Assembly: GCA_030745655.1 (NCBI GenBank)
Contig: JASLOE010000005.1
Coordinates: 1-40,183 of the forward strand
Direction of reading: 5' to 3'
DNA from: Nitrososphaerales archaeon
GTDB lineage: Archaea; Thermoproteota; Nitrososphaeria; Nitrososphaerales; JACPRH01
DNA length: 40,183 bases
The stretch's first letter is position 1, and each line of letters starts with the position of its first letter. Position numbers and translations under genes: made by a program. A model generated the notes under the pieces. That model did no database searches. It was not told the origin of the DNA and saw only the letters and a list, made by a program, of their open reading frames with translations. Below are positions 349 through 21,483 of this stretch, one piece after another.

Positions 349-462
349 TGGGCCGACCAGGATTTGAACCTGAGCTACTACCGTGTGAGGGTAGTGTCCT
401 AACCAGGCTATCCCGACGAAAGCAGTATTCTTAAAATCTTTCATCGACTAGACCATCGGCCC
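349..462 (-). tRNA. tRNA-Val (CAC) with a 40-nt D-loop intron
   Basis: The acceptor arms GGGCCGA and TCGGCCC pair, the anticodon loop CTCACAC gives anticodon CAC, and the T arm is CAGG-TTCAAAT-CCTG. The D loop is interrupted by an insert at 408-447. Removing it restores GTCTAG+CCTGGTTAGGAC and a 74-nt tRNA with discriminator A and no encoded CCA. The junctions form a bulge-helix-bulge: GTCT pairs with GGAT as the 4-bp central helix (with G-T pairs), the three-base bulges are AGT and AGC, and the inner 9-bp helix is CGATGAAAG/CTTTCGTCG. This is the substrate of the archaeal splicing endonuclease. The intron lies between tRNA positions 15 and 16, not at 37/38. Confidence 0.93.
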
Positions 463-21004: not shown

Positions 21005-21114
21005 GCCTGATGTTTAATGAATATCATTCAAGAAAATATTTTATAGCTTGCAGTCATTACACAATATTATTTTTTTGTCTAAAAAAAGGGAGCAATGATA
21101 ATACATAGAAGTGG

Positions 21115-21257
21115 CGCCCTGGCCGGGATATTCCGATGGCTTGAAATTTCCACCATCTTTTGAACCCGGGTCACAAGAGTGACAGTCTCGCATACTGGAC
21201 CGAATTATACACGGCAATTATCTACGTTGGATCTTTGCCGCTCTATACTACCAGGGC
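21115..21257 (-). tRNA. tRNA-Asp (GTC) with two introns, D-loop and T-loop
   Basis: The acceptor arms GCCCTGG/CCAGGGC pair and anticodon loop CTGTCAC gives GTC. Intron 1 (21205-21242, 38 nt) interrupts the D loop. It has central helix GTAT/GTAT, bulges AGA and AAT, and inner helix GCGGCAA/TTGCCGT. Intron 2 (21129-21158, 30 nt) interrupts the T loop between TTCAAA and T. Its inner helix is GATGG/CCATC, and the central helix is imperfect (TTC/GAA plus one mismatch). Removal of both gives a 75-nt tRNA with T arm CCGGG-TTCAAAT-CCCGG and discriminator G. CCA is encoded next to it (21112-21114), unlike the other tRNAs here. Confidence 0.93.
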
Positions 21258-21384: not shown

Positions 21385-21483
21385 GGGCCCGTAGCTCAGC
21401 CAGGGAGAGCACCGGTGGGAAGAGAAATCTTCTCGGTGAAGCTTTTAACCCGGGTGTCCTGGGTTCAAATCCCGGCGGGCTCG
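21385..21483 (+). tRNA. tRNA-Lys (TTT) with a 25-nt intron in the anticodon stem
   Basis: The acceptor arms GGGCCCG/CGGGCTC pair, and loop CTTTTAA gives anticodon TTT. A 25-nt insert at 21416-21440 splits the 5' strand of the anticodon stem between positions 30 and 31. Removal restores CCGGG/CCCGG and a 74-nt tRNA. The bulge-helix-bulge is complete: central helix CACC/GGTG, bulges GGT and AAG, and inner helix GGGAAGA/TCTTCTC capped by a GAAA tetraloop. The 72-aa frame at 21294-21512 in the ORF track only reads through this gene. Confidence 0.94.

Follow-up and report, generated by a model that had tools for sequence, protein, structure and literature searches.

The window analyzed here, a whole stretch of 40,183 nucleotides, harbors a tRNA-Asp(GTC) gene interrupted once in the D loop and once in the T loop, which together make up the tRNA elbow. 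This raises the question of whether the locus is a functional gene, the two inserts of which are removed from its transcript by splicing proteins, or a tRNA gene in decay.

Gene layout, predicted spliced product, and conservation

The interval assigned to this gene in the initial annotation, 21112–21257, is correct; the strand, which that annotation did not give, is minus, with the gene reading 21257..21112 (Table 1), and a plus-strand reading of the locus yields no tRNA. On the minus strand, the 5' part runs GCCCTGG TA GTAT AG, the 38-nt insert, TTCGGTCCA GTAT G CGAGA CTGTCAC TCTTG TGAC, and the 3' part runs CCGGG TTCAAA, the 30-nt insert, T CCCGG CCAGGGC G CCA. The proposal that excision of these two inserts (38 and 30 nt) leaves a 75-nt tRNA-Asp(GTC) is borne out by the coordinates and by ARAGORN, which calls the spliced sequence, 78 nt long with the encoded CCA, as tRNA-Asp(gtc) with a full cloverleaf. 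Removal of the inserts thus restores a canonical cloverleaf, as for archaeal bulge–helix–bulge (BHB) introns, and the product has the GTC anticodon, G73, intact stems, and conservation in relatives that characterize a functional tRNA-Asp(GTC).

Table 1 Features of the interrupted tRNA-Asp(GTC) locus in window coordinates; ↓ marks a predicted cut site
Feature	Positions	Strand	Basis
tRNA-Asp(GTC) gene, two introns and encoded CCA	21112..21257	−	sequence; ARAGORN on spliced form; congener orthologue
Exon 1: acceptor 5' strand GCCCTGG, TA, D stem GTAT, A14 G15	21243..21257	−	
D-loop intron (15/16, 38 nt): GCGGCAA/TTGCCGT as intron helix; bulges at AG↓A and AA↓T	21205..21242	−	same position in many relatives
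Intron GTAT pairing with D-stem nt 10–13 (central helix); copies D-stem 3' strand GTAT (22–25)	21207..21210	−	
Exon 2: remaining D arm, anticodon arm, variable region, T stem 5' strand, T54–A59	21159..21204	−	
Anticodon GTC, loop CTGTCAC	21181..21183	−	
T-loop intron (59/60, 30 nt): T stem CCGGG/CCCGG as outer helix; TTCA/GGAA, with a single mismatch, as central helix; GATGG/CCATC as intron helix; bulges at AA↓A and TA↓T	21129..21158	−	
Exon 3: U60, T stem and acceptor 3' strands, discriminator G73, CCA	21112..21128	−	
T7 run downstream of the gene, likely transcription terminator	21081..21087	−	sequence only

The unspliced gene gives no ARAGORN call and scores only 19.2 bits against the Rfam tRNA model, shifted out of register; a covariance model of the T-arm intron matches it at 21123–21169. 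Because the only tRNA-Asp gene found is missed by the finders run, tallies of genes and estimates of completeness may be skewed for archaea of this kind. The initial annotation also held that this gene alone encodes CCA, which is true of the tRNA genes seen in the window and false genome-wide, where at least seven other tRNA genes have CCA directly 3'.

Several other tRNA genes of the source genome are interrupted. A tRNA-Val(CAC) gene (349–462, minus strand) has a D-loop insert of ≈40 nt of the same design, with D-stem GTCT paired to the intron's GGAT that immediately precedes AG↓C, and the Rfam match to this gene covers its 3' part only (349–414). A tRNA-Lys(TTT) gene (21385–21483, plus strand), ≈130 bases from tRNA-Asp in divergent orientation, is interrupted near 30/31, in the 5' half of its anticodon stem, by an insert of ≈25 nt. 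Elsewhere in the genome, tRNA-His (L096, G000:C64:21903-21978, minus strand) contains a 21-nt T-loop intron with a central helix TTCG/AGAA, the fourth pair of which is mismatched as in tRNA-Asp. At least seven further tRNA genes (L097, L098, L100–L104), 99 to 142 nt in length, have inserts in the D loop and elsewhere; several are probably two-intron genes, and they are missed by ARAGORN and fall below the Rfam cut-off.

The source genome comprises 902,772 bases and is 88.75% complete; a search of it found no second tRNA-Asp(GTC) gene, in a tRNA list that derives from searches and may be incomplete. Such an intact second copy was what the initial annotation had named as the observation that would point to a pseudogene. 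The congeneric genome G001, the contig of which matches JASMAB010000013.1 (Nitrososphaerales archaeon ETNP2_MAG_84), has a tRNA-Asp gene 97% identical to this one with the same flanks; exons and D intron are identical, and the T intron, 32 nt long in G001, differs in sequence and keeps its helix. The spliced tRNA is identical at 69 of 75 positions to that of an intronless relative (G018).

Splice motifs and their distribution

The precursor folds with z = −4.56, and none of 200 shuffled sequences is as stable. Both introns conform to the BHB motif, defined as two 3-nt bulges on opposite strands with a 4-bp central helix between them and a helix on each flank in strict forms, one flanking helix being absent from relaxed forms. 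The T intron has all three helices (outer, central, and intron), and the single central-helix mismatch noted previously is confirmed as A57·G within TTCA/GGAA. In the D intron, D-stem GTAT (10–13) pairs with intron GTAT through two Watson–Crick and two G·T pairs; the central and intron helices are present, and there is no convincing outer helix, which corresponds to the relaxed HBh' form described previously (PMC6379350, PMC4090602). With two G·T pairs in the central helix and no proper outer helix, the D intron is therefore the more relaxed of the two. The BHB-like structure earlier ascribed to the flanks of both noncanonical inserts is thus recovered, in three-helix form for the T intron and in HBh' form for the D intron. 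The exact cut sites are predicted from the motif together with the 11-nt D loop of intronless relatives.

To place the gene in the context of its order, we read the tRNA-Asp genes in 74 Nitrososphaerales genomes. The D intron alone is found in 28, the T intron alone in 4, both in 16, and neither in 18, with the remaining eight (all family f8) harboring longer inserts between acceptor and anticodon. The D+T pair is spread over six families (f1, f3, f7, f10, f12, and f14). Within the source family, members of another genus (G002 and G004) have the T intron and lack the D intron. Most clades have GTAT/GTA[A,C,T] as the central helix of the D intron; in f14 it is GTGT/GCAC, so that the change on one strand is compensated on the other. 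The D insert of two f12 genomes does not fit this pairing. In 26 of 49 distinct T introns, the bulges are bordered by an intron helix of ≥4 bp, as compared with 1.0 expected (maximum 7 in 500 shuffles). This shuffle test gives the unbiased figure for the intron helix, as the separate helix counts drew on rows selected for having that helix paired. Across the same 49 sequences, base 57 and the intron base opposite it covary (G with C in 13, A with T in 19). Homologous introns with covarying helices are found in other families.

A pattern scan of named genomes (42 stretches) places tRNA-Asp T-loop introns at the same site in Lokiarchaeota, Woesearchaeota, Aenigmatarchaeota, a Heimdallarchaeote, and many Nitrososphaeria. 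The rarity implied by the initial annotation, which associated such pairs mainly with some Thermoproteales and a few other TACK archaea, does not survive these data, given D+T pairs in 16 of 74 Nitrososphaerales genomes from six families and T-loop introns in the tRNA-Asp of several phyla. A host from the Thermoproteales or Sulfolobales, which the intron load might have suggested, is rejected, as the named congener is a Nitrososphaerales (Thaumarchaeota) record. The idea that tRNA-Asp is a special host of T-loop introns is refuted by matches of the T-arm covariance model to Glu, Leu, Lys, Ser, and His tRNA genes in relatives. Other insert positions were also seen in tRNA-Asp: two genes (L044 in G007 and L120 in G045; families f4 and f13) have an apparent intron inside the 3' strand of the acceptor stem, at ≈68/69, and another (L048 in G014) combines a D-loop insert with one at ≈53/54, the border of T stem and T loop.

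Splicing endonuclease and known systems

Nitrososphaerales genomes typically encode two EndA paralogues, α and β. The α paralogue retains the catalytic Tyr, His, and Lys and has a loop, YFGKPLGIFKPKDFEFEAPL in the source genome, that is absent from β. K41-P42-K43 of the source α aligns without gaps to residues 44 to 46 (K44-P45-R46) of Aeropyrum pernix α (3p1z_B), the loop positions to which PMC12397907 ascribes importance in relaxed cleavage; α thus shows the Tyr/His/Lys triad and K-P-K/R loop expected of the catalytic subunit of an (αβ)2 splicing endonuclease with a Crenarchaea-specific loop. Thaumarchaeota are listed with α2β2 enzymes (PMC4090602). The source genome encodes α twice (L092, G000:C21, and L093, G000:C7), as near-duplicates with about 88% amino acid identity and the same upstream neighbor gene. 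A search of the same 88.75%-complete genome did not find β, which is present in most genomes of the order, including three members of the source family, and genome incompleteness is the simplest reason for its absence. Three PF01974 matches in the source genome might have suggested a three-subunit enzyme, which we reject: two are the near-duplicate α genes, which apparently stem from a mixture of strains, and the third (C1), a diverged paralogue, resembles β no more closely than α. This EndA-like gene (L094/L211, first 660 bases of G000:C1) lies beside a masked stretch, possibly on a contaminant contig.

The α/β paralogues and the Crenarchaea-type loop support a broad-specificity heteromeric endonuclease for the clade, as the initial annotation had implied; for the source organism, where the genomic check that it proposed recovers α and not the β seen in three family members, we infer such an enzyme. 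In the mechanism that we propose, the T stem with TTCR/NGAA would form one BHB-like substrate in the precursor, and the 5' strand of the D stem with the intron copy of its 3' strand would form a second; an (αβ)2 splicing endonuclease with the Crenarchaea-type loop would cut each at its bulges, and the exons would then be joined by the archaeal ligase. Transcription, cleavage, ligation, and the subunit make-up of the endonuclease in the source organism are likewise what we infer.

Related systems are known. PMC8450103, on tRNAscan-SE 2.0, describes Thaumarchaeota with multiple noncanonical introns, of which it counts 107 in its genome set, and a dedicated model for them; the phylum and the kind of intron are the same, and multiple-intron genes are already reported there, whereas the gene described here comes from a marine genus of Nitrososphaerales that is uncultured. 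The multiple-intron tRNA genes of Thermoproteales, as relayed in PMC4090602 and PMC4033280 (Sugahara 2007/2008), likewise contain several short BHB introns per tRNA, including in the T arm, with Pyrobaculum islandicum tRNA-Pro having introns at 25/26 and 56/57 plus the canonical one; they differ from the source gene in phylum, positions, and host. Aeropyrum-type (αβ)2 enzymes and their relaxed HBh'/hBH introns share with this system the relaxed motif, an α subunit with a loop of the Crenarchaea-specific type, and the conserved Lys; they differ in that β was not recovered in the source genome and activity here is a prediction. Position 59/60 is a listed noncanonical intron site (PMC4090602). 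Our search found no description of the 15/16 and 59/60 pair in tRNA-Asp; most subscription papers and the GtRNAdb tables lie outside that search, so the missing description is not evidence of novelty.

Weighing the readings

We assign a probability of roughly 0.94 to the reading that the locus functions as a tRNA-Asp(GTC) gene in its host, a marine Nitrososphaerales archaeon, and carries two putatively protein-spliced BHB introns, at 15/16 and 59/60, on the basis of gene anatomy, conservation, covariation, and the α/β genes of the order. Were the gene instead a disrupted pseudogene, its inserts would be products of decay and tRNA-Asp would be supplied by an intact copy elsewhere, which a genome ≈89% complete might have missed. 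We consider this very unlikely, given that no second Asp(GTC) gene was found, that the congener copy is intact with unchanged exons, and that the match to intronless G018 is 69/75; all stems are intact as well, and many families have inserts at these very positions, with helices that covary. A sequence or assembly artefact of the metagenome-assembled genome is the least credible explanation, extremely improbable even though two EndA α genes at ≈88% identity and duplicated Thr and Ala tRNA genes suggest a mixture of two related strains in the bin, since the gene and its flanks recur in the separate bin G001.

A further possibility accepts splicing and gives it a regulatory role: retention of the introns, or the order of their removal, would be controlled and would gate tRNA maturation. 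As long as the introns are present, the D stem and T loop would be paired with intron bases, so that the elbow and modifications such as archaeosine at G15 and those at 54–56 would be blocked. Both central helices do use elbow nucleotides (10–13 and 54–57), and both positions recur together in six families; 18 genomes with neither intron nevertheless speak against gating, and each intron also occurs alone (28 D-only and 4 T-only genomes), which argues against obligatory pairing. We regard such gating as unlikely. The same low odds attach to the proposal that the 15/16 and 59/60 pair is a recurrent Nitrososphaerales design in which splicing would serve as a checkpoint for elbow folding and core modification, each intron capturing half of the elbow, by mimicking the 3' strand of the D stem or by pairing with T-loop TTC. 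The anatomy would allow the two introns jointly to keep the elbow open until they are removed.

The functional reading stands, and the twice-interrupted tRNA-Asp is genuine and common in the order, a fresh example of a known phenomenon. Across the order, genomes that have both introns, only one, or none, at fixed positions, form a natural comparative set, useful for the study of tRNA intron gain and loss and of endonuclease specificity outside the hyperthermophilic Thermoproteales.
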